62,337 nt of DNA, taken from positions 1 through 62,337 of IMG/VR virus record IMGVR_UViG_3300025128_000029, one strand, 5' to 3'. Origin of the DNA: a virus. Shown in pieces: positions 914 through 46,346 of this stretch. Under the pieces are notes generated by a model that ran no database searches, was not told the origin of the DNA, and saw only the letters and a list, made by a program, of their open reading frames with translations. A program made the translations under genes and the position numbers. The first letter of the stretch is position 1, and each line of letters starts with the position of its first letter.

Positions 914-1386
914 TATGCTAGGTCTCCATGTATATTATTTGATACATAATTAAGGTCTTGAGAACCTGAAGCACTTGCTCCTGCATGGTTTGCAGTTATT
1001 CTTAAAGTACTTGTTGTAACAGAGCCATCTTGTAATGGTTGAGGACTATAAACAAAAGCTGTTGTATCACCTGCTGGAGCAGCTTTACCACTTACAGTAT
1101 ATCCTTCTGCTGTAGCCATGTTACTTGTAATAGCATAAGTTGTATCTCCTGCTGCATTATCTGATTGCACAGAAAAATTAAAAGAATCAGCAACTACTGG
1201 ACTTGTTGAATCTAGTGCATAAGCAATCCATCCTTTACATAATCCTTGTTGAATACTTGTCTGTGCTGAACCCTCACCTCTAATAGTCATAGAGTTTGCA
1301 CTTGCACTTACTACAGGTGTTGAGCCAATGGTTATGGTTGTTGCAGTGGACTTGCCTGTGATTGTGTCTAGGATTACTGTACTCAT
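913..1386 (-). CDS. tail-fibre-type protein, GDLA family paralog
   Basis: This 157-residue protein begins MSTVILDTITGKS, a fibre-like N-terminus also seen in variant form in the 1673-2152 product. It carries the KGW...DSFNFS...TYAITSNMA core shared with 530-913 and 61701-62069 and ends in GDLA. The codons for GDLA include GGAGAC, a good ribosome site for the next gene, whose ATG overlaps the stop. Probably a virion fibre component; the exact location in the particle is not known. Confidence 0.72.
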   Translation of the reverse strand: MSTVILDTITGKSTATTITIGSTPVVSASANSMTIRGEGSAQTSIQQGLCKGWIAYALDSTSPVVADSFNFSVQSDNAAGDTTYAITSNMATAEGYTVSGKAAPAGDTTAFVYSPQPLQDGSVTTSTLRITANHAGASASGSQDLNYVSNNIHGDLA

Positions 1387-1388
1387 CT

Positions 1389-1673
1389 CTAACCTTTCGG
1401 ATACTTGTCTTTAACAGCTTTGATTGCAGCTTGAAATGTATCTCCACCCACACCTGCATGATACATCATGTCTAATTGTTCTGCTATTGCAGGATATTCT
1501 TCTTGTCTTTTTTCTACATATGCTATTGATGACATTTTAGTTTTTATATCTGTTTTAGATATTTCTGATGTTCCCCCTAACCATTCAATTTTACAATTAT
1601 CTATATCGTCTCCTCTAACAACAACTTCAGCTTTAGGATTAATAGCTTTTATTGCATCAATTACTTTTTTCAT
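1389..1673 (-). CDS. small tail-fibre-associated protein
   Basis: A 94-residue charged, mostly helical protein. Its C-terminal half has the pattern YPAIAEQLDMMYHAGV followed by AIKAVKDKYPK. I recognise this pattern from small proteins encoded beside phage tail fibres, where they are thought to help fibre assembly or attachment. The start overlaps the previous stop as TAATG. Role assigned by context and pattern only. Confidence 0.68.
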   Translation of the reverse strand: MKKVIDAIKAINPKAEVVVRGDDIDNCKIEWLGGTSEISKTDIKTKMSSIAYVEKRQEEYPAIAEQLDMMYHAGVGGDTFQAAIKAVKDKYPKG

Positions 1674-8787: not shown

Positions 8788-9801
8788 TTACTCGTACATG
8801 TATCTATTAATCGCTTCGTAGCCAACATGTAATGTTTTAGCTTCTGCAGCGAGTGCTTGGATACCAATATAAGGAATAAAGTCTTTATCATCAGTTAAAG
8901 CTGATCCGAGTGTTGTTCCAGCAGCAGTATCAACTCCACCACCTGTTGCAGTAGAAGTTAATGAATACTGTGTTCCATTTATAAAAGCTGCTGGCTTTCT
9001 ATCACTATCAATGATTATTTTTAAATGATAAATAGTGTTAGCAGCGACAGCTAAATTCAAATCACTTAAATAATCTGTACCACCTACACTATAAGCAAAA
9101 TGCCAATTAGCTTGAGTTGTGATTGTACCTAAATCATCGTCAGTAGCATATATAAAGTATGCTTGATCAGCATCAGTAGCTATGGTTGGAGTGTTTGTTA
9201 ACTTTAGTCCAGCCCAAATACAAGTGTTTGTAATAGCTGCTCCTGTTGTAATAAGACATTCCCACTCAGTTTGATTCTCAGAACCCCACTTAGTTCCTGT
9301 CCAAGCTGTTTGATTAGTATCTAAATGTGGAAGAATAATAATTTGATCATTATCTGCTCCATCAAGAGTAAGTTCGACACCACCTCGAGTAGCTGAAAAA
9401 GTAACATCATCAGTAGATGCGTTAGTTCCTAATATCTCAAAATTTTTATTTGCAGCTTGAGTTGCAGCAAGAGCAGAGGCATTATCAGCATCTGGATCTA
9501 TAATATTAACTGCATTAAGAGCTGGTCTTTGTAGAAAAAATTCTTCTAAATAAACTCTATCAATAGCCCTTGCTGTTCTATTAATACCCTTTGCTCCAGA
9601 AATAGTAACTGTATTATTAGCTGTTGTTGCTCCTGTAAGAGTTGTTGCTCCTGTTACAGCAAGTGTGCCACCTATAGAGGTATTACCTGTTGTAGAGGAA
9701 ATTGAAGTATGAGTTGTTTCTACACCTGTTGCATCGGCTGTAGAAATAACGGATAAACCACCCTCAGCTCGGACGGTTCCTTTAAAAGTTGTATTAGCCA
9801 T
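8788..9801 (-). CDS. virion structural protein with lectin-like C-terminal domain
   Basis: This 337-residue protein has a repetitive fibre-like N-terminus (TTFKGTVRAEGG; TSIGGTLAVTGATTLTGA) and a larger C-terminal domain from about residue 85. The C-terminal domain has the look of a beta-sandwich, concanavalin-like fold (IYHLKIIIDSDRKPAAFING is a typical strand pattern). It may be a head fibre or decoration protein exposed on the capsid. It lies directly after the capsid gene, set apart by hairpins on both sides, which suggests separate control of its amount. Confidence 0.68.
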   Translation of the reverse strand: MANTTFKGTVRAEGGLSVISTADATGVETTHTSISSTTGNTSIGGTLAVTGATTLTGATTANNTVTISGAKGINRTARAIDRVYLEEFFLQRPALNAVNIIDPDADNASALAATQAANKNFEILGTNASTDDVTFSATRGGVELTLDGADNDQIIILPHLDTNQTAWTGTKWGSENQTEWECLITTGAAITNTCIWAGLKLTNTPTIATDADQAYFIYATDDDLGTITTQANWHFAYSVGGTDYLSDLNLAVAANTIYHLKIIIDSDRKPAAFINGTQYSLTSTATGGGVDTAAGTTLGSALTDDKDFIPYIGIQALAAEAKTLHVGYEAINRYMYE

Positions 9802-9869
9802 ATATATCTCCTATCGTGGCTTAGTCAATCACACCATTATGATTGTTAGGAATAAAATCAGTATTACAT

Positions 9870-13990: not shown

Positions 13991-14195
13991 TATTTTCTCC
14001 CTTATGTTCGTGACCCATCCATATACCAAATACACCAGTCATTACACCCATAACTACAGATACAAATGCAGACTGACTAGCAGTTGGTGCATCTAAATCC
14101 ATAAACCATTCGGCACATCTCCAGGACATTATTGTACTAGCAAGCATCATAAATCTTGGTAGTATCTTCCATTTTAGAAAAGTTTCTACATTCAT
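13959..14195 (-). CDS. small membrane protein, lysis cluster
   Basis: A 78-residue protein with two membrane helices (FMMLASTIMSWRCAEWFM; SAFVSVVMGVMTGVFGIWM) and a hydrophilic tail. It overlaps the holin-like gene by 32 bases in another frame. I know related proteins from marine phages (pattern LKWK-LPR-MML). It may be a second holin or antiholin; this is inferred from position. Confidence 0.72.
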   Translation of the reverse strand: MNVETFLKWKILPRFMMLASTIMSWRCAEWFMDLDAPTASQSAFVSVVMGVMTGVFGIWMGHEHKGENNVNSTNRSSK

Positions 14196-21977: not shown

Positions 21978-21985
21978 CAGTTAAT

Positions 21986-22045
21986 CCTTTCTACGATTAA
22001 TTAAGTTATATTTAATAATAGCATAAAATACGTCTAGGTGTTTAA
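21986..22045 (-). promoter_or_regulatory. promoter-like leader of 21732-21977
   Basis: Minus strand: GACGTATTTTATGCTATTATT, AT-rich spacer, AATTAATCGTAGAAAGG, then the start. TGCTATTAT resembles an extended -10 (TGnTATAAT). The whole block is nearly the same before 22053-22379. Confidence 0.5.
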
Positions 22046-22052
22046 TTTATTA

Positions 22053-22379
22053 TCAAGAGTTCTCCGTGTCACGGAAGTAGTCTACTTGTACTTTAATGGC
22101 GATGCCGTCTTGTTCGGCTCCATTCCTCATTTCTTTTATAACACTAATAGCCTCGTCTAAGCTTTTCTGGTCAACAACTTTTGTAAACCAACTGATAAAG
22201 TCGCCTCCCTCTTCAATGTTATACAAAAAAGCATAGACTTCCTGAGGGGAAGACATTGTTATTACTAACCGACCATCTTCTCCCCACTGCTCAGTATAAG
22301 TACTAATATTATCAATAACAACAGGGTTGATATAGTAGGTGCTATGACCTGATTCTTTGATTAAAGTGTTAAACAACAT
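22053..22379 (-). CDS. unknown protein in terminase region
   Basis: A 108-residue soluble protein with mixed alpha/beta look (VVIDNISTYTEQWGEDGRLV; VYAFLYNIEEGGDFISWF). No known family recognised. It has its own leader with the recurring ribosome box. Confidence 0.6.
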   Translation of the reverse strand: MLFNTLIKESGHSTYYINPVVIDNISTYTEQWGEDGRLVITMSSPQEVYAFLYNIEEGGDFISWFTKVVDQKSLDEAISVIKEMRNGAEQDGIAIKVQVDYFRDTENS

Positions 22380-22386
22380 GATAAAT

Positions 22387-22446
22387 CCTTTCTACGATTA
22401 ATTTGTTTATACTTATATAATAGCATAAAATACGTCAAGTGGTGTC
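22387..22446 (-). promoter_or_regulatory. promoter-like leader of 22053-22379
   Basis: Minus strand: TTGACGTATTTTATGCTATTAT, AT-rich spacer, AATTAATCGTAGAAAGG. It overlaps the 3' end of the terminase small-subunit gene. Shares more than 35 bases with the leader at 21986-22045, which supports a repeated control element. Confidence 0.5.
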
Positions 22447-22983
22447 TTTTATTACCTTACTTTCTCCCTCTATGACAAGGTTATCTTCAGTAAAAGATTT
22501 GAGTGCAGGAAACTCTTCCTGGATTCTCTTAATTTCTTTCATGACCTCGTCGCGATTCATCGAGTCAATCTTTCCATGCAGAATCTCTTTGCGATCAATA
22601 TAAAGTCCGGCAGCTTGACCTCGGGACTTCTCTGCCGCGACTGCTGCTGCGAAATTCCCTCCTGTCATAGCTTGATCTCTGATCTCGGCTAATTTTTTGA
22701 CGTGTCCTTCAAATGAGACTTCATATTTTTTAGACAGCTCAGCTTTAAGCTCTTTGATTCGGGCGACTACTGCTGGATATCGGGTTCCGTTGAGGAGTTG
22801 CGATGCTATTGCATGAGCTGATGCGACAGAGTATCCTGCTCTTATCGCTGCTTCAGTCTGGCTTATGTCTTCAGTTACATAAATCTTAGCGAACTCTTCT
22901 TGTTTGGGAGTGATCCCCTTCTCCGATCGGGGATTGCCTACAATATCTAATGTGGGCTTATGTGTCTTTTTTGCTAATGCCAT
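22435..22983 (-). CDS. terS: terminase small subunit
   Basis: Start at MALAKKTHK, with AGGAG 6 bases before the ATG, giving 182 residues. The N-terminal helix-turn-helix part (about residues 25-70) has ITPKQEEFAKIYV, then SQTEAAIRAGYS and ASQLLNGTRYPAVVARI, the pattern of the terminase_2 family. A helical oligomerisation section follows, and the end is acidic and basic by turns. It binds the packaging site and loads TerL. It is the first recognised gene of the late unit, preceded by the element at 23036-23153. Confidence 0.87.
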   Translation of the reverse strand: MALAKKTHKPTLDIVGNPRSEKGITPKQEEFAKIYVTEDISQTEAAIRAGYSVASAHAIASQLLNGTRYPAVVARIKELKAELSKKYEVSFEGHVKKLAEIRDQAMTGGNFAAAVAAEKSRGQAAGLYIDRKEILHGKIDSMNRDEVMKEIKRIQEEFPALKSFTEDNLVIEGESKVIKDTT

Positions 22984-23035
22984 AATTATCTCCTGTACTT
23001 TACATAATAGGAGCAGACTAAGAATTTGCAAAGAA

Positions 23036-23153
23036 TTTTTTTATCTCCGATAACAGTGTGTGACCAGATGAAGTAAGATATTAGATATTGTATATCGGAA
23101 TATTTCTAAAAAATAATTCATTAACTTTTTCATTTCACTCCTATATAAGCAAA
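23036..23153 (-). repeat. leader element, copy A (late unit)
   Basis: Minus strand: TTTGCTTATATAGGAG, then AATGAAAAAGTT, TTCCGATATACAATAT, AATATC, TGGTCACA and AGATAAAAA, in that order. The same blocks occur in the same order and strand at 44737-44830. TATATA after TTGC could be a promoter -10. It stands between a hairpin terminator and terS, thus at the head of the late unit. Confidence 0.72.
23041..23133 (-). CDS. leader peptide A (30 aa)
   Basis: A 30-codon frame starting MKKLMNYFLEIFRYTISNIL, preceded by AGGAGTGAA at correct spacing. The pattern MKK, then FRYTI-x-NI is shared with the 38-codon frame at 44695-44811. Either a real small peptide, for example a leader or membrane peptide, or a by-product of a conserved DNA element. 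Confidence 0.5.
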   Translation of the reverse strand: MKKLMNYFLEIFRYTISNILLHLVTHCYRR

Positions 23154-23184
23154 CTCCGTGGACCATTGTTATCGGTCCACGGAG
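23154..23184 (-). terminator. hairpin ending the early unit
   Basis: Perfect 11-bp stem CTCCGTGGACC / GGTCCACGGAG with a 9-nt loop, followed on the minus strand by TTTGCTTATATAGG. The U-tract is short (three T). It divides the leftward unit above from the late unit, and abuts leader element A. Confidence 0.6.
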
Positions 23185-33555: not shown

Positions 33556-33844
33556 TTAATCTTACCTCTGCCTCCACTAATAACAAGTACCTCCTTAAAT
33601 CTTGTATATCATCTAATATACCCTCTGGGCGAGTATCTTCCTTTATTGCTTGGAAAACATCGTAATTAACTTTTGTTACTTGGTTCTCAAGCCTATCCCA
33701 TTTACGAGCAAGCATCATAAAAGCACCTACACCACCTCGCTTTTTCCAACTATCACCGTAAGATTGCTCAGCTTCATGTAACCCTTTTACATCTTCGTTT
33801 GCTAATGTATTTACTTTTTGTATTATCTTACTTCTAGTACTCAC
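33518..33844 (-). CDS. MazG/Nmad1-like helical protein
   Basis: Start at GTG, inside the TGA of the thymidylate-synthase-like gene (GTGA) and after AGGAGACTGAA; 108 residues. The central stretch HEAEQSYGDSWKKRGGVGAF, then ARKWDRLENQV, resembles all-helical NTP-pyrophosphohydrolase-like or nucleotide-modification-associated domains seen in phages. The end is LRRYLLLVEAEV. A role in the nucleotide pool or DNA modification is inferred from its location. Confidence 0.58.
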   Translation of the reverse strand: MSTRSKIIQKVNTLANEDVKGLHEAEQSYGDSWKKRGGVGAFMMLARKWDRLENQVTKVNYDVFQAIKEDTRPEGILDDIQDLRRYLLLVEAEVRLNGITRPEDKSSL

Positions 33845-34824
33845 TTCAGTCTCCTCTCTAACCATTCTATACAAGCCCTCCTCCATGCTCTATCATTTAT
33901 TCTTGATGCAAACTTTAATGCTGTAAGTAGTTCTTTCTTTTTCCAAGCTTTCCATGACTTCATCATGGGGGTAGCTGTGTCTGTGAGATAAGTATTAGTT
34001 AATCCTTCTATAGTATAATCATCAAACCATTTGTACAACTCAGAATCAAAATTATGAGCATTATCTATTAATGGTGGCGAATTATAACTTAACCCATCTT
34101 CAGCTAATAAAAGATAAGGTTCATAATCGGGCTGTAGGGAATATAAGTTTAATTTTTCTAATACATCTGTATAAACATGAAGATTATTACTTATTTGATA
34201 ATAAGTACCAATTTTATTATCTGTCATGAAAGCCATATATTCTAACAAAAAAGACATATGTACTGCATTTGCTCCATAAGCACCCCAGATCATATCATTA
34301 CTTCTGTTTACCACAGTCATATTAAGATAACCTTTTCTAGCCCAAAAAAAGACTTGTGTATTACAAGGATAATCTACTCCTGTGTTTGTTGAAGTTAGAT
34401 CAGCATAAGGATCCCACATACCTACTACAACTCTACGATCATTAGGGTAACTTAACAATCTGTTTTTAGCTATGTTTAATTGGTCTACACCAAAGTGCTT
34501 CCTCCAGCGATGTCCGTATGCACCATGAAAGGTAATACCGTCATCGCTATAATTATTCATTCTTCCGTTAAATTGGCTAATCCACTCTACATCATTACGA
34601 CCTGCTAACATCCATAAGCTTTCCATAAAATGGAAATATGGGTTAGCATCACGTTGAGGGTAAAACAATACTCTTTCCCAACTGTGTGTGTATTCTGTGC
34701 AAACAGGCATTGGAAACTCTAAAGCTTTACCATTTCTAGTATCTACCTCTACCCCTGTGTTTTGGATAACCTGTATGCCGTGATATAAAGCCTCACTAAC
34801 ACCTCTACTATATATATTGTACAA
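33841..34824 (-). CDS. thymidylate synthase / dNMP hydroxymethylase family
   Basis: Read from a TTG start because AGGAGG stands six bases before it and no earlier ATG fits. In the 327-residue protein the family motifs are NDRRVVVGMWDP (Arg130-Arg131), the catalytic cysteine in DYPCNTQVFF (Cys154), NRSNDMIWGAYGANAVHM with RS-x-D (174-177), and Asn186 at the place that selects dUMP. The divergence from ThyA, with PCNTQ rather than PPCH, and the neighbours suggest hydroxymethylation of dUMP as an alternative to plain dTMP synthesis. Confidence 0.78.
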   Translation of the reverse strand: MYNIYSRGVSEALYHGIQVIQNTGVEVDTRNGKALEFPMPVCTEYTHSWERVLFYPQRDANPYFHFMESLWMLAGRNDVEWISQFNGRMNNYSDDGITFHGAYGHRWRKHFGVDQLNIAKNRLLSYPNDRRVVVGMWDPYADLTSTNTGVDYPCNTQVFFWARKGYLNMTVVNRSNDMIWGAYGANAVHMSFLLEYMAFMTDNKIGTYYQISNNLHVYTDVLEKLNLYSLQPDYEPYLLLAEDGLSYNSPPLIDNAHNFDSELYKWFDDYTIEGLTNTYLTDTATPMMKSWKAWKKKELLTALKFASRINDRAWRRACIEWLERRLK

Positions 34825-34909: not shown

Positions 34910-35905
34910 CTACTCAATGTTTAAGAACTGCTTGTATTGGCTACCTATTATTATAGGGTCGTGTAATTTAAGAGCATTATACCCATTTTCTCTAATTGAT
35001 GGTATAGAATCAGAGTAAGCCCCATTGAGTATAGTAGCCAACTCTTCTGCAGAGCCAACAGCAAAACAGTTATAATCAGGCTTCATATCATCAGGTTCGT
35101 CAAGTATCCACTTATTATGTATAATAGGAATACATCCTGCATTCCAAGATTCTAAAGCTGTGTATTGTGTTCCACCACCATCACCCACTATTTGCGTCAT
35201 ATCTACATTAAACACATAATCTTGCATTAACTTAAACGCAAAATCATTTTCTCTAGGGTAATGGGCTTTAGATTGTACCCACTCTGGATACTTTGGCACA
35301 ATTTTAAACCGAGTAAAAATTCTGTTTTCAAAACCTCTTATATTTATTTTCTTATCTTCAGTTAATAACCTATTAGCATCTAATAATATTTCAGTGTGCT
35401 TATCAAAATCAATACGCGAAGTACTTACAGCACCCTTTCTATCAAGGTTAGTATGTTTAGGAAAAGGTGTATAAGGGTGACGGATAAAGGTTGCCCCCTC
35501 AAAAGTTCTTGCACCTATTTGTCTAATAACAACACACCTTTTAGGGTCTAAATCAACAGGTAAGTTTTTTAATTCAGTTGGGTCATGAACAACGATACTT
35601 GCACCTATATCGTACAATAGCTGTGTTTCTTCTTTAAACTGCTTTGCCCCAGCGACAACTAACTTAATCGTTTCTTTGTACTCGTTGTTTACAATAGTTT
35701 TACGATTCCTAGCCTCAGCCATAGAAATATTTCTATAATGTTTACCATAACCAAACTCACGGCTTTTGCGTTCACTCTTTGGTCTTATCTTAAACAGGGT
35801 ACACTTAACTCCTACTGCTTCAAGGGCTTCCATCAAATGATTAGTATAAGTAACCCAACCTCCATACGGATTAGGGCTTAAATAAAATAAATCTACATGT
35901 GTCAT
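34910..35905 (-). CDS. glycosyltransferase (GT-B-like)
   Basis: Start at MTHVDLFYLSPNPYGG, overlapping the HMUDK-type gene by four bases (ATGA). The 331-residue protein has a two-domain GT-B look: SPNPYGGWVTYTNHLMEAL at the start, a middle with CVVIRQIGARTFEGA, and a C-terminal donor-binding segment DGGGTQYTALESWNAGCIPI. The last segment is like the E-x-x-x-x-G-x-P region of GT4-type enzymes. It may glycosylate modified bases or another phage molecule. Confidence 0.72.
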   Translation of the reverse strand: MTHVDLFYLSPNPYGGWVTYTNHLMEALEAVGVKCTLFKIRPKSERKSREFGYGKHYRNISMAEARNRKTIVNNEYKETIKLVVAGAKQFKEETQLLYDIGASIVVHDPTELKNLPVDLDPKRCVVIRQIGARTFEGATFIRHPYTPFPKHTNLDRKGAVSTSRIDFDKHTEILLDANRLLTEDKKINIRGFENRIFTRFKIVPKYPEWVQSKAHYPRENDFAFKLMQDYVFNVDMTQIVGDGGGTQYTALESWNAGCIPIIHNKWILDEPDDMKPDYNCFAVGSAEELATILNGAYSDSIPSIRENGYNALKLHDPIIIGSQYKQFLNIE

Positions 35906-36816
35906 GCTACAGGTCCTTCCAATGTTTTCCATTTGTTGTAATTTAAAAGTGAACTAAGATGGGCATCGTACTTACTACGAGGTGTACCTTGCCCTAATCT
36001 AACTCTTTCATACTTATCCCACTCACACAGGCTATGCTCTATAGTTCGCATATCTACGTTTTCAATGGAGACTACATTTCTAGTACCCTGTGCAATATCT
36101 AATACTTTTTTCATTTCTATATTAGACTGAACAGCAGTTAGTCCTTTAGTAAGGGGTCTATCGTATAACCTGTTTAAACCTCGTTTTGCTCCTGGACCTG
36201 CGTTCGCCCAAGTAAAACGGTCTGTCGCCTCGTCCAGTATGCGTGTGTAGTTGAGATCGGTAACCACTTCGTAAGACATAAAGCCCCCTCCACCCCACCC
36301 ACGATAGGCAGACATCGCATGGTGTAAGGCTTGTAACGACTGAGTGTTGGTCGCAATCTCGGCAAGTTTTTCTTTGCTTTCCCAAATAGGGGTGAGGAAA
36401 TGGTCAACTACAACTTCTCCTTTAGGTAACTTTAACCCTTGATTAGTTATAATATATGCTCCTGTAAAAGTTCGCAACTTCTTAGCCAATCGTTCGGCGA
36501 TTAATTGCTTAGTATATTCAGGATCCCACTTTGAAGCCCAACCATGAGCCTCAGCAAACTCAGTTGTACCAACCATTCTAAACAAACAACAGTTAAATAT
36601 TATTTCGCCATCGGGTTTATTATGGTTTGGGTTTGTCCAGTTCTGACGCATCCATATAGTAACCTTATCGTTTTCACGGAAAGGGTTTGTAAATTTATAC
36701 TCTTGGAGTATTTTATCTTTTGTAAAGGGAGGTGGATCACCAATTACTTTTTTTCGGTAAATAGCATGTCGCTCATTTATCCAATAAAAGAACCTTTCTA
36801 AGTTCTCTATGTTCAC
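35902..36816 (-). CDS. HMUDK-helical / aGPT-PPlase-like DNA hypermodification protein
   Basis: Starts with GTG after GGAGAGTAATT; 304 residues. The opening FFYWINERHAIYRKKVIGDP, then ILQEYKFTNPFRENDKVT, the central LQALHHAMSAYRGWGGGGFM, and the end LCEWDKYERVRLGQGTPRSK follow the helical domain of 5-hydroxymethyl-dU DNA kinases and related alpha-glutamyl/putrescinyl-thymine pyrophosphorylases. No kinase P-loop is present in it. It would act on hydroxymethylated pyrimidines in DNA. Context with glycosyltransferase and ThyA-like genes supports this. Confidence 0.75.
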   Translation of the reverse strand: MNIENLERFFYWINERHAIYRKKVIGDPPPFTKDKILQEYKFTNPFRENDKVTIWMRQNWTNPNHNKPDGEIIFNCCLFRMVGTTEFAEAHGWASKWDPEYTKQLIAERLAKKLRTFTGAYIITNQGLKLPKGEVVVDHFLTPIWESKEKLAEIATNTQSLQALHHAMSAYRGWGGGGFMSYEVVTDLNYTRILDEATDRFTWANAGPGAKRGLNRLYDRPLTKGLTAVQSNIEMKKVLDIAQGTRNVVSIENVDMRTIEHSLCEWDKYERVRLGQGTPRSKYDAHLSSLLNYNKWKTLEGPVA

Positions 36817-40441: not shown

Positions 40442-41086
40442 TTACTTTTCTTTCTTCGTTTTCCAAAAATACTCATCAGTATCACCTAATCTAGTATTAT
40501 TACCATTCTCTACCTGATAAAAAACTGTACTCACCTTAAAGTCGGGATTGATAGGTTTTTCAGGGGTCAAACTATTATCATATACTCGCATTCTATTATT
40601 AGGGTATAAGCAAAACTGTCCGTTTTCTAACTCTAGTAAGTTAAAAGATTTATGCTCCTCGGGATTCTCACTTGTACTATAATCAATCGAGTCGGGATCG
40701 GCATGATAGTTATCTATCGTACAAACATAATATCCTTTTTGTATGCCAAAATCTCTGGTTAATATTTCAAAATCCATACTACCGATAAATTGTTTGTGTA
40801 TAGCTGTAACATTGTAATCCATACAATTCCAAAACTGTAAGTTGTTAAGGGGCATGTCGGGTTTTGGTGGCTTTTTAGAAGCAACAAAAGCACTGATTGG
40901 TAACTTATCAAACAAAGCACCATAATCAGGTAAATAAGTTTCAAAGTAAAATGCTCTCCCAGGAATAGATTTGCATGAAGTCCATATTCCAGCAACATAC
41001 TCGCCATGTCCATCATTATGGTCTCTTAAATATTCTTTTCTAACCCAAACTTTTTGTGCTGGAAGATTACATATCAACTCTGCCAT
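40442..41086 (-). CDS. conserved-looking unknown protein
   Basis: A 214-residue protein. Features: CNLPAQKVWVRKEYLRDHND, GIWTSCKSIPGRAFYFETYL, and DKLPISAFVASKKP. The alpha/beta content and many aromatics suggest an enzyme or SSB partner. It starts with a TAATG overlap after GAGGAG. No family known to me. Confidence 0.62.
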   Translation of the reverse strand: MAELICNLPAQKVWVRKEYLRDHNDGHGEYVAGIWTSCKSIPGRAFYFETYLPDYGALFDKLPISAFVASKKPPKPDMPLNNLQFWNCMDYNVTAIHKQFIGSMDFEILTRDFGIQKGYYVCTIDNYHADPDSIDYSTSENPEEHKSFNLLELENGQFCLYPNNRMRVYDNSLTPEKPINPDFKVSTVFYQVENGNNTRLGDTDEYFWKTKKEK

Positions 41087-41328
41087 TAATCAACAAACTC
41101 CTCTAATGCTGTTTTTAATGAATGAAGATGAACAAATACAGGGGTGTCTTCGCCAACCCATGCACCAATAACATTATAAGACATCCATTCTTCTGCTTCG
41201 TCTTCACTCATCTTGTCTCGTTTCATTAAAATTTTTATACATTTAGAGTAATCATAAACAGCGACAACGATATTAAATCTGCAACCTGTACCAATAAAAG
41301 CTTTCTCAAATCCATCAGCTAACATCAT
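41086..41328 (-). CDS. small conserved-looking protein
   Basis: An 80-residue protein with MMLADGFEKAFIGTGC, VAVYDYSKCIKIL, and NVIGAWVGEDTPVFV. This short protein type recurs in phages beside the primase. Function unknown. Overlaps on both sides as TAATG. Confidence 0.66.
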   Translation of the reverse strand: MMLADGFEKAFIGTGCRFNIVVAVYDYSKCIKILMKRDKMSEDEAEEWMSYNVIGAWVGEDTPVFVHLHSLKTALEEFVD

Positions 41329-43723: not shown

Positions 43724-44265
43724 TATCTTTCCTTCCGTTTAATTTTAGTTTTATAACCCACATAAACACCAAAGGTGTCCATCGGGATTGTGCTTATTTG
43801 TTCTTTTGCAAAAGCTTTCAATGTCATTGGTTCAACCCACTTTCTTGTATTTACAGGTAAACCTCTGCTATTTAGTTCGTCAGCAAAATCTTCGGCTATT
43901 TGTTCTTGTCCACGCACAAAGTTTGTAGAAACAACATTCTTTATAAGGTCGCCGTGACCATTATTATTAAGCCAAGCAAAAGCTTCATCCTGCTTGTCTT
44001 TTGGTATACTCGCTGAAACATACTCAGATACAGTGATTTCTGCACCATCATGTAGTTCCAACTTTTTGAGGTTATGCTCCATCATCGCTGCTGGTAGCTG
44101 ATCCTCTGTTACCTCTCGGTAAGCCTTTTCTTTTTCTTTAAGTTCGGCTTTTAACCTTACGATATCATCTTCCATAGCAGAAGCCATTGTAGCAAGTTTG
44201 CTAATCTGGCTCATACCTGTTTCAGTAATACCTTTAAGGTTGTCGGCTGCTGATTCAAAGTCCAT
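43723..44265 (-). CDS. unknown phage protein with coiled coil
   Basis: A 180-residue protein with a coiled coil (about residues 20-60, MASAMEDDIVRLKAELKEKE), then an alpha/beta part with SIPKDKQDEAFAWLNNNGHG and LPVNTRKWVEPM. I recognise the pattern from phage early genes. Perfect AAAGGAGG before the start, and the start overlaps the preceding gene. Function unknown; a partner of the SSB is possible. Confidence 0.68.
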   Translation of the reverse strand: MDFESAADNLKGITETGMSQISKLATMASAMEDDIVRLKAELKEKEKAYREVTEDQLPAAMMEHNLKKLELHDGAEITVSEYVSASIPKDKQDEAFAWLNNNGHGDLIKNVVSTNFVRGQEQIAEDFADELNSRGLPVNTRKWVEPMTLKAFAKEQISTIPMDTFGVYVGYKTKIKRKER

Positions 44266-44590
44266 TAATACCTCCTTTCGGTTTATAATTACAATCGGCA
44301 GTAAGAGGGAAATACTTATTTTCTTGCCTATCCCACTTCAGCATTTTAAACCTTCCATTATTAGCACGACTCGCTAGTACAGCAGATAAAGCTATCGCTG
44401 CTGGATCTCCTGCTAATAACAAATAGTCATCGTCTGTGAACTTGTTAAGTCTCTGTTGTAGCCTACGGATCGTAGGTTGTGTTGAAAAACTTGTTTGTTC
44501 ACCATCAGGTAATAGTATCTCTAAATCCCCAAAGTTTTGAGCATCTGTAAGATCCCTACCTCGCATTTCTTGTACAATGTAAACGGTCAT
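44255..44590 (-). CDS. first regular gene of the early unit, unknown
   Basis: Start at MTVYIVQEMRGRDLT (GGAGAAAGAC before it); 111 residues. Segments FGDLEILLPDGEQTSFST, LQQRLNKFTDDDYLLLAGDP and GRFKMLKWDRQENKY are similar to a short early phage protein I have seen beside primase or SSB genes. No function known. It is downstream of the leader element at 44695-44830. Confidence 0.66.
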   Translation of the reverse strand: MTVYIVQEMRGRDLTDAQNFGDLEILLPDGEQTSFSTQPTIRRLQQRLNKFTDDDYLLLAGDPAAIALSAVLASRANNGRFKMLKWDRQENKYFPLTADCNYKPKGGINGL

Positions 44591-44694
44591 GTCTTTCTCC
44601 ACATGTTTTAACATAAGTAAACCTAGCATATTAAAATGCGATTTACGTTTCTTGTTTTATCTAAACTACTTTTTTCTATAAATAGTTTTACTTA

Positions 44695-44811
44695 TTAGTA
44701 CCAAAATAAAAAAGTTGTGCTACTTTTTTTAAATCCGTTTTTATCTTGTGACCAGATATTGTATATTGTATATCGGAAAAGTTGTGAATACAAGTTATTA
44801 AACTTTTTCAT
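44695..44811 (-). CDS. leader peptide B (38 aa)
   Basis: Starts MKKFNNLYSQLFRYTIYNIW and is preceded by AGGGGGTAA. The pattern MKK, then FRYTI-x-NI is the same as in 23041-23133; the ends differ. It could be translated as a leader of the early unit. Confidence 0.48.
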   Translation of the reverse strand: MKKFNNLYSQLFRYTIYNIWSQDKNGFKKSSTTFLFWY

Positions 44812-44830
44812 TTACCCCCTATATAGCAAA
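44737..44830 (-). repeat. leader element, copy B (early unit)
   Basis: Minus strand: TTTGCTATATAGG, AAATGAAAAAGTT, TTCCGATATACAATAT, AATATC, TGGTCACA and AGATAAAAA. It is the second copy of the element at 23036-23153, at the head of the early leftward unit. Confidence 0.72.
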
Positions 44831-44906
44831 GTGAGTAAATAGTTATAGCAACTCTTATACATTTATATATAATAAAGTAATTACATATTCCGAAGAAAGG
44901 GAACTA

Positions 44907-46346
44907 ATGCGTTATAAATTTAAGTTTGAACCATATAAACATCAGTTAGATGCTTTAACTAAGGCATGGAACAAAGAGTTTTTTGCTTTCTTTATGGATA
45001 TGGGTACAGGTAAATCAAAAGTATTAATAGATAATATTGGCATACTTTATGACAAAGGCGAAATAGACTCTGCTTTGATCATAGCACCCAAAGGTGTTTA
45101 CCATAACTGGACAAGAAAAGAACTACCTACACATTTACCTGAACATATCCATGCTGATATTGTTACATGGTCTCCTGAGAAAACACAAAAGAAAGCAAAA
45201 GAGCTTGCTGTGTTAAACCAAGTTACAGACAACCTTGTTATATTCGTTATGAATGTAGAGGCTTTATCTACTAAAAGGGGAGTAGCTGTAGCTGATAAGT
45301 TTTTGTTAACTCACAGGGCTATGCTTGCTGTAGATGAAAGTACTACCATAAAATCTAGAACAGCTTCAAGAACAAAAAATCTTATGAAACTAGGTAAACT
45401 AGCCAGTTATCGCAGAATATTAACTGGCTCCCCTGTAACTCATTCTCCCTTAGATCTTTATACCCAATGCACTTTTTTAAAAGAAGAAAGTTTAGGGCAG
45501 TCTTCATTTTGGACTTTCCAAAACAGATATGCTAAAATGGTTAGGAGAACACTTGGTTCACATAGCTTTAATCAAATAACAGGTTACCAAAACCTTGAAG
45601 AACTAAATGGTATTATAGAACCCTATAGCTTTAGAGTTCGCAAAGAAGACTGTTTAGACTTGCCAGATAAAGTGTATATAAAAAGGTCAGTGGAACTAAC
45701 TGATGAGCAAAAACTTTTATATGTTCAGTTAAAAAGTTCTGCTATGGCTTTTGTAAAAGAACAAGGGCAAATCACAGCACAAACAGTACTCACACAAATA
45801 ATTAGATTACAACAAGTATGTTCAGGCTTTGGCAAACTTGATGATGGGCGAATGGTTGAAGTTTCATCAAACAAACTTAATGAACTAATGTCTGTATTAG
45901 AAGAAACAACAGGTAAAGTTATTATATGGGCGAACTTTACACATGATCTACAAATAATTTATCAAGCAATAACAAAGGCTTACGGAGCAGATTCAGCTTC
46001 CCTTTTCTATGGGGAAACCCCTACTGATGACAGACAAGATATAGTAGAGCAGTTTCAAAACCCTAATAGCCCACTGAAATATTTTATAGGACAACCACGC
46101 ACAGGTGGATATGGGTTAACTCTTACTGAGGCTAAAACAGTTATATATTATAGTAATGGATATGATTTAGAAGTTAGGTTACAAAGTGAAGATAGAGCTC
46201 ACCGTATTGGTCAAACTAATAAAGTCACTTATGTAGATATAGTTACTGAAAAAACTATAGATGAAAAAATATTAAAAGCATTAAGGGCTAAAATAGATAT
46301 TGCAAGTCAAGTATTAGATGAAGGTGTGATGAACTGGATTATTTAG
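44907..46346 (+). CDS. SNF2-type DEAD-like helicase/translocase
   Basis: A 479-residue protein, the only plus-strand gene. Motif I MDMGTGKSK (about 30-38), motif II DEST (143-146), motif III LTGSP (172-176), GYGLTLTEAKTVIYY, and motif VI SEDRAHRIGQ near the end. This is the core of SNF2 family proteins found in many phages. A ribosome site GAAAGGGAACT precedes the ATG. It probably remodels protein-DNA complexes or forked DNA. Its 3' end overlaps the oppositely directed gene by 8 bases. Confidence 0.88.
   Translation: MRYKFKFEPYKHQLDALTKAWNKEFFAFFMDMGTGKSKVLIDNIGILYDKGEIDSALIIAPKGVYHNWTRKELPTHLPEHIHADIVTWSPEKTQKKAKELAVLNQVTDNLVIFVMNVEALSTKRGVAVADKFLLTHRAMLAVDESTTIKSRTASRTKNLMKLGKLASYRRILTGSPVTHSPLDLYTQCTFLKEESLGQSSFWTFQNRYAKMVRRTLGSHSFNQITGYQNLEELNGIIEPYSFRVRKEDCLDLPDKVYIKRSVELTDEQKLLYVQLKSSAMAFVKEQGQITAQTVLTQIIRLQQVCSGFGKLDDGRMVEVSSNKLNELMSVLEETTGKVIIWANFTHDLQIIYQAITKAYGADSASLFYGETPTDDRQDIVEQFQNPNSPLKYFIGQPRTGGYGLTLTEAKTVIYYSNGYDLEVRLQSEDRAHRIGQTNKVTYVDIVTEKTIDEKILKALRAKIDIASQVLDEGVMNWII

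Follow-up and report, generated by a model that had tools for sequence, protein, structure and literature searches.

A previously unreported twin-ended element heads the replication genes and the packaging and virion genes of a marine phage and its uncultured relatives

The two main leftward gene units of a marine phage are each headed by a copy of the same noncoding element, which is previously unreported and which precedes the replication genes in one place and the packaging and virion genes in the other. The genome is the viral record IMGVR_UViG_3300025128_000029, and the whole stretch that we analyzed, 62,337 nucleotides, is referred to here as the window. The element is carried by this phage and by uncultured phages related to it. 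Within a genome, both copies have changed in concert, which suggests, as far as sequences can, that one phage-specific factor acts at both. We give about an even chance to the reading that the element is a duplicated divergent promoter-operator block served by a single co-evolving, putative phage factor.

RESULTS

Two copies of one element head the main leftward units

The original prediction held that five short blocks recur, in the same order and on the same strand, ahead of the terminase small subunit gene (terS) and the late unit and ahead of the early unit. All five blocks are indeed present at both sites with order and strand kept, and the element does head the two main leftward units, one of terS and virion genes and one of replication genes. 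Given the possibility that such similarity is no better than chance for AT-rich DNA, we aligned the two intervals as first proposed and obtained a score of 43.5, compared to a mean of 11.5 (SD, 2.1; maximum, 22; z = 15.5) for 2,000 dinucleotide-preserving shuffles. Local alignment of the whole element scored 54.5 (z = 18.6), and none of the 2,000 shuffles reached either score. Compared without gaps, the sites are 78% identical across 72 nt (repeat family D6). When one copy was searched by BLAST against the record, the sole match was the other copy (E = 3.5e-12).

The element exceeds the span originally proposed, running from 22995 to 23157 before terS (minus strand; model R1 match at 22995-23154, E = 3.9e-22, plus alignments) and from 44683 to 44836 in the gap beside a helicase gene, where we call it the early copy (minus strand; R1 match at 44687-44835, E = 2.7e-18, plus alignments). 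The missed portion is a second end, the inverted counterpart of the first, located at 23011-22997 in the terS copy and at 44699-44684 in the early copy. We recognized this larger element, of which most but not all had been seen, because relatives were aligned.

Across phages, the element is about 150-230 bp of noncoding DNA in which the same site of about 30 bp, with the consensus TTTTACCCCTATWATAGCAAAGT, faces outward at both ends and encloses a GATATAC-rich core and a block of about 20 bp. On the minus strand, the order is L end (ACTTTGCTATATAGGGGTAAAA), core (TTTTCCGATATACGATATACAATATC), block, T-rich stretch, and R end (TTTTACCCCTATTATAGCAAAGT). In the terS copy of this phage, the L end, GTTTGCTTATATAGG (23140-23154, minus strand), is a somewhat degenerate inverted counterpart of the R end; the core, TTCCGATATACAATATCTAATATC (23077-23100, minus strand), holds the invariant ATAT columns of alignment A1; and the R end, CCTATTATGTAAAGT (22997-23011, minus strand), is a candidate -10 region that stops 13 nt ahead of the terS ATG, a distance of 11-32 nt in relatives. 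In the early copy, the L end, ACTTTGCTATATAGG (44818-44832, minus strand), faces the helicase gene, whose start is 74 nt away; the core, TTCCGATATACAATATACAATATC (44755-44778, minus strand), was placed by alignment; and the R end, ACTAATAAGTAAAACT (44684-44699, minus strand), is followed, after about 93 nt, by the likely start (44590) of the first gene in the replication unit. Both copies carry the same genome-specific block, CTGGTCACA (23059-23067 and 44747-44755, minus strand), at whose place many genomes have ACTTTCTCTGTCCGCGCGA and most relatives have CTGTCCGCGCG or a variant of it.

The first gene past the terS copy is terS itself (22435-22983, minus strand; phrog_51, E = 1.1e-18). The first gene of the replication unit (44255-44629, minus strand) encodes a Pam3_gp32-like protein (PF23992, E = 1.6e-27) that is present in 20 of the 20 modules compared, and divergent from this unit lies the gene for a superfamily II helicase (44907-46346, plus strand; phrog_62, E = 2.2e-121). 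We also observed another duplication, of about 83 nt (21983-22065 and 22384-22467, 401-402 nt apart, with parts 88% and 76% identical; families D12 and D18), whose copies flank a small gene at 22053-22379 right after terS.

When read outward, the L and R ends are one site, sharing conserved T positions, CTATWATA, and AAAGT at equal spacing; the layout is a T-rich stretch, CCCC, a TATWAT-like hexamer, and AAAGT, and conservation breaks off right outside AAAGT at both ends. The L and R ends nevertheless mostly stay distinct, with CTATATA in the former and CTATTAT in the latter. An end-site profile applied to the window placed three of the four ends above shuffle level (24.9, 18.3, and 17.8), and the L end of the terS copy, which is degenerate in this phage, scored 14.2, near the shuffle maximum of 14.7. 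One further match of doubtful rank (16.1), at 14153-14182, falls within an ORF. Almost nothing but the element ends stood out when six other replication modules were scanned, and no solitary end-site copies were found elsewhere.

Relatives carry the element at the same two gene boundaries

Using a sequence-only model built from 35 copies, we searched 25 related viral records, this one included, and found two elements in 24 of them; the lone remaining record is shorter and has one. Measured along the shorter arc, the two elements are separated by 18-23 kb, circular maps being assumed where the start of a record falls between them. Wherever we checked, one copy precedes terS and the other sits between the divergent helicase gene and the replication unit, such that a search of relatives, which had been put forward as a check on the element, recovered it at both boundaries. 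The terS copy has the same orientation in all records, and the helicase-gap copy is inverted whole in one clade (G007, G008, G009, G018, G019, G021, G022, and G023), where its R end lies about 20-30 nt before the helicase ATG. Orientation is fixed per clade, and close relatives did not differ in it at either site.

An additional pattern scan of viral contigs yielded new loci, of which 35 of the 39 tested match the model strongly, several loci being near-copies. The model found no match in four named isolates of the wider group (HTVC027P, HTVC023P, 023Pt_psg01, and DSL-LC04), blastn of three stretches against phage records gave nothing or chance-level matches only, and a scan of 84,980 bacterial and archaeal genomes with one strict pattern gave no match. 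Upstream of terS, HTVC023P has several CTAGGAAAA-like direct repeats, iteron-like in appearance, within a gap of 547 nt (L200, 2770-2890).

A hairpin had also been predicted before the terS copy, and it is found there: ACTCCGTGGACC and GGTCCACGGAGT form 12-13 pairs at 23185-23153 on the minus strand, with a minimum free energy (MFE) of -23 kcal/mol (z = -5.6). Judged by its sequence, it looks like a terminator, possibly that of the upstream unit; its 3' arm overlaps the first (L) end of the abutting terS copy, and its T run is weak in this phage. Terminator-like hairpins occur just upstream of the terS copy at 14 of 36 loci, some of the 14 being near-copies of one another, compared to 1 of 22 loci at the helicase gap. 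The stems that relatives have in this place are unrelated in sequence, and many are followed by clear T runs, as in CCCATGCATG-6-CATGCATGGG-TTTTTT of L334. Hairpins at the terS site fit an arrangement in which the upstream unit ends there and a new unit begins inside the element. The L end is kept at this site even though it points into the tail of a unit running in the same direction.

Paired copies of a genome have evolved in concert

Because the element is found at the same two places, its duplication seems to predate these genomes, and after so old a duplication, independent drift should leave a genome's own copies no more alike than foreign ones. We found that block identity across 17 representative genomes was 0.73 within genomes and 0.49 between them (permutation P = 0.00005). 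Corresponding values were 0.55 and 0.41 for the inner part of the L end and 0.72 and 0.61 for the core (permutation P ≤ 0.0003), and 0.76 and 0.71 for the R end (P = 0.005). The within-genome excess is thus seen in every part of the element and is greatest in the block; the likeness expected of shared operators, with own-genome sites more alike than foreign ones, extends to all parts (P ≤ 0.005). Blocks common to both copies include CTTTCTCGGTACGCGCGA in G005, ACTTTCGGGGCTTTCTGGGAAA in G014, and ACTTTTCCCGCCACGCGAG in G023. The exceptions are G018, G019, G021, and G022, which have unlike blocks in their two copies and all of which carry an inverted copy. Gene conversion between the copies is a possible cause of their likeness, but given that the pairs of one genome are just 43-66% identical overall, a common binding factor is the simpler explanation.

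Promoter-operator block or another kind of site

The original prediction proposed a shared promoter or regulator site serving as a leader of both units. Its regulator-site part is strengthened by the co-evolution of the copies within genomes, while its one-way leader part is contradicted by the outward-facing twin ends and by the inverted copy of one clade. If the element is instead a divergent promoter-operator block, a reading favored by the two copies that 24 of 25 records have at one and the same pair of gene boundaries, the TATWAT portion would be a -10 region, and the R end would start terS transcription a few nucleotides before the ATG. At the helicase gap, the two ends would serve both divergent units in either orientation of the element. 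A putative phage-specific DNA-binding factor would recognize the block, and probably the ends as well, in both copies and would switch both units, together or in turn. We propose that the copies drift in step because the specificity of this factor changes.

Several observations argue against this reading. Some R ends make poor -10 hexamers (TAATAA and TACTTA), an outward promoter at the L end of the terS site would yield antisense RNA only, and the lack of solitary end sites elsewhere is unlike a general phage promoter. The unlike blocks in G018, G019, G021, and G022 count against it as well, and so does the missing -35 consensus. Sigma-70-like sites, with -10 and -35 hexamers 16-18 nt apart, are not enriched over shuffled sequence; the terS copy has a 9-of-12 match and the early R end has none, and a consensus sigma-70 promoter was rejected. 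A promoter for a single-subunit phage RNA polymerase would call for a phage-encoded enzyme; no RNA polymerase was found among the proteins scanned, which include two large proteins without a convincing family. No regulator was recognized among the 10 replication-module families present in 20 of 20 genomes. To find a trans-acting factor, we clustered module-wide and examined the helix-turn-helix proteins beside L334 as well as an 80-amino-acid ORF at 41086-41328, and no candidate common to all emerged. In L334, a protein encoded a little upstream of the terS copy (1061-1570, plus strand) has a weak helix-turn-helix match (HTH_Tnp_1, HTH_23, GcrA-like); it is a candidate regulator and was not found in the other modules.

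The alternative that we take most seriously, while thinking it probably wrong, is a replication origin present in duplicate, possibly also active as a promoter, in which inverted initiator sites flank an AT-rich GATATAC-repeat core and a copy lies on either side of the replication module. The inverted end sites, the AT-rich repeated core, the independence of orientation, the location at both module edges, and the co-evolution with one factor would all suit an origin, which would also account for the outward L end being kept at the terS site; in addition, isolate HTVC023P carries its repeated CTAGGAAAA units upstream of terS in place of the element. However, neither copy shows a skew reversal, as GC skew is negative window-wide and tracks gene direction, a test that is weak because nearly all genes share one direction. 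No initiator gene was recognized, a spacing of 18-23 kb between two origins would be unusual, and the R end lies at -10 distance from the terS and helicase starts. It is unlikely, too, that the two-copy, twin-ended element brackets the replication module and couples the start of replication with early and late transcription through one fast-evolving putative factor of an undescribed kind, its genome-specific "barcodes" being equal in both copies. We consider it improbable that the element serves some other DNA transaction, for example inversion of the segment, recombination at the module edges, or packaging. Packaging sites often lie near terS, which one copy adjoins, and inverted ends around a segment of 150-230 bp, together with the opposite helicase-gap orientation in one clade, would fit such a role; yet orientation is constant per clade, the terS copy is never reversed, the two ends usually differ (CTATATA versus CTATTAT), and no invertase or integrase was recognized among the proteins scanned.

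Readings in which the element acts through its transcript fare worse. Genome-matched copies at the heads of main units do have the look of nut sites, but a structured RNA leader, or an antitermination site like nutL/nutR acting in each unit's transcript, is very improbable, and we rejected a structured RNA after finding no conserved or covarying fold. RNAalifold returned zero conserved pairs for 35 sequences; by direct count, L and R pair almost perfectly only where the columns barely change, pairing at variable columns being close to chance, with seven G-G mismatches at one column; Rfam has no match to the element; and in the inverted clade, the element would be on the wrong strand relative to the replication unit. 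Small leader ORFs are hardly credible. Each copy does contain a short frame starting at ATGAAAAAGTT, one of 30 codons and the other of about 38, and the AGGAG or AGGGGG ahead of this start resembles a Shine-Dalgarno sequence. A conserved coding function for these frames is refuted by their breakage in close relatives, where L084 and L085 have TAA after 7 codons and L005 has lost the start, and other clades have no such frame. Neither a conserved RNA nor a peptide was thus found to explain the element as a leader.

Other observations in these genomes

At 35902-36816 (minus strand), the phage encodes a protein with a 5-hmdU DNA kinase helical domain (PF18723, E = 2e-46); the best match to it among phages bears the annotation thymine pyrophosphorylase. 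A thymidylate-synthase-family protein is encoded at 33841-34824 (minus strand). Based on these two predicted proteins, thymine in the DNA of this phage may be hypermodified. All 20 element-bearing modules compared contain both, and neither has a match in the stretches of HTVC027P and DSL-LC04 that we examined. At 9799-9851 (minus strand) there is an Rfam match to Mu-gpT-DE that is barely above the gathering score (50 versus 49 bits).

DISCUSSION

Phages of the HTVC023P type, which are relatives of this group, are described as the most abundant known pelagiphages (PMC12753301), and we found nothing on transcription control in HTVC023P-type phages in the literature that we examined. A pair of elements at module boundaries that drift in step provides a defined target: start sites are predicted for both units, as is one factor that could be retrieved by pull-down using a genome's own block. 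A temporal transcriptome has been published for HTVC027P (PMC12753301), a phage that gives no match to the element. The word "promoter" is absent from that paper, and both "promoter" and "intergenic" are absent from the HTVC023P-type genome papers that we consulted. Our search of the literature, chiefly of openly available papers, brought up no comparable element, the nearest being repeats and divergent promoters in unrelated systems.

In halovirus HF2, which has an archaeal host, intergenic repeats carry promoters, and there are many repeats, of 58 bp and 29 bp (PMC8707807). Our element is similar in being a repeated intergenic viral sequence with AT-rich motifs that serves several units, but it differs in having two long, twin-ended copies per genome. 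In the divergent promoter region of plasmid pLS20, control sites lie between divergent units (PMC4207663). Our element resembles that region in its helicase-gap copy and differs in recurring at a second, nondivergent place. Phage DSL-LC04 has an inverted-repeat block upstream of terS (L198, 2145-2365), with 36-nt arms, 83% complementary, around 131 nt and with a CGCGCGCG motif. This likeness does not establish a relation to the element, given that the block is single copy and has no model match.

The nutL and nutR sites of phage lambda are genome-matched copies that head its two main units and act as RNA with a boxB hairpin. The pair described here is likewise genome matched and placed at the heads of main units, but no RNA structure is conserved in it, and one clade has one of the copies inverted. 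Lambda also has two operator regions, OL and OR, in each of which the sites for a single regulator are repeated or inverted. Our two regions are 18-23 kb apart, no repressor was found, and each copy combines two end sites with a core and a block, in all of which they differ from OL and OR; they resemble them in forming two regions that are matched inside a genome and differ between relatives.
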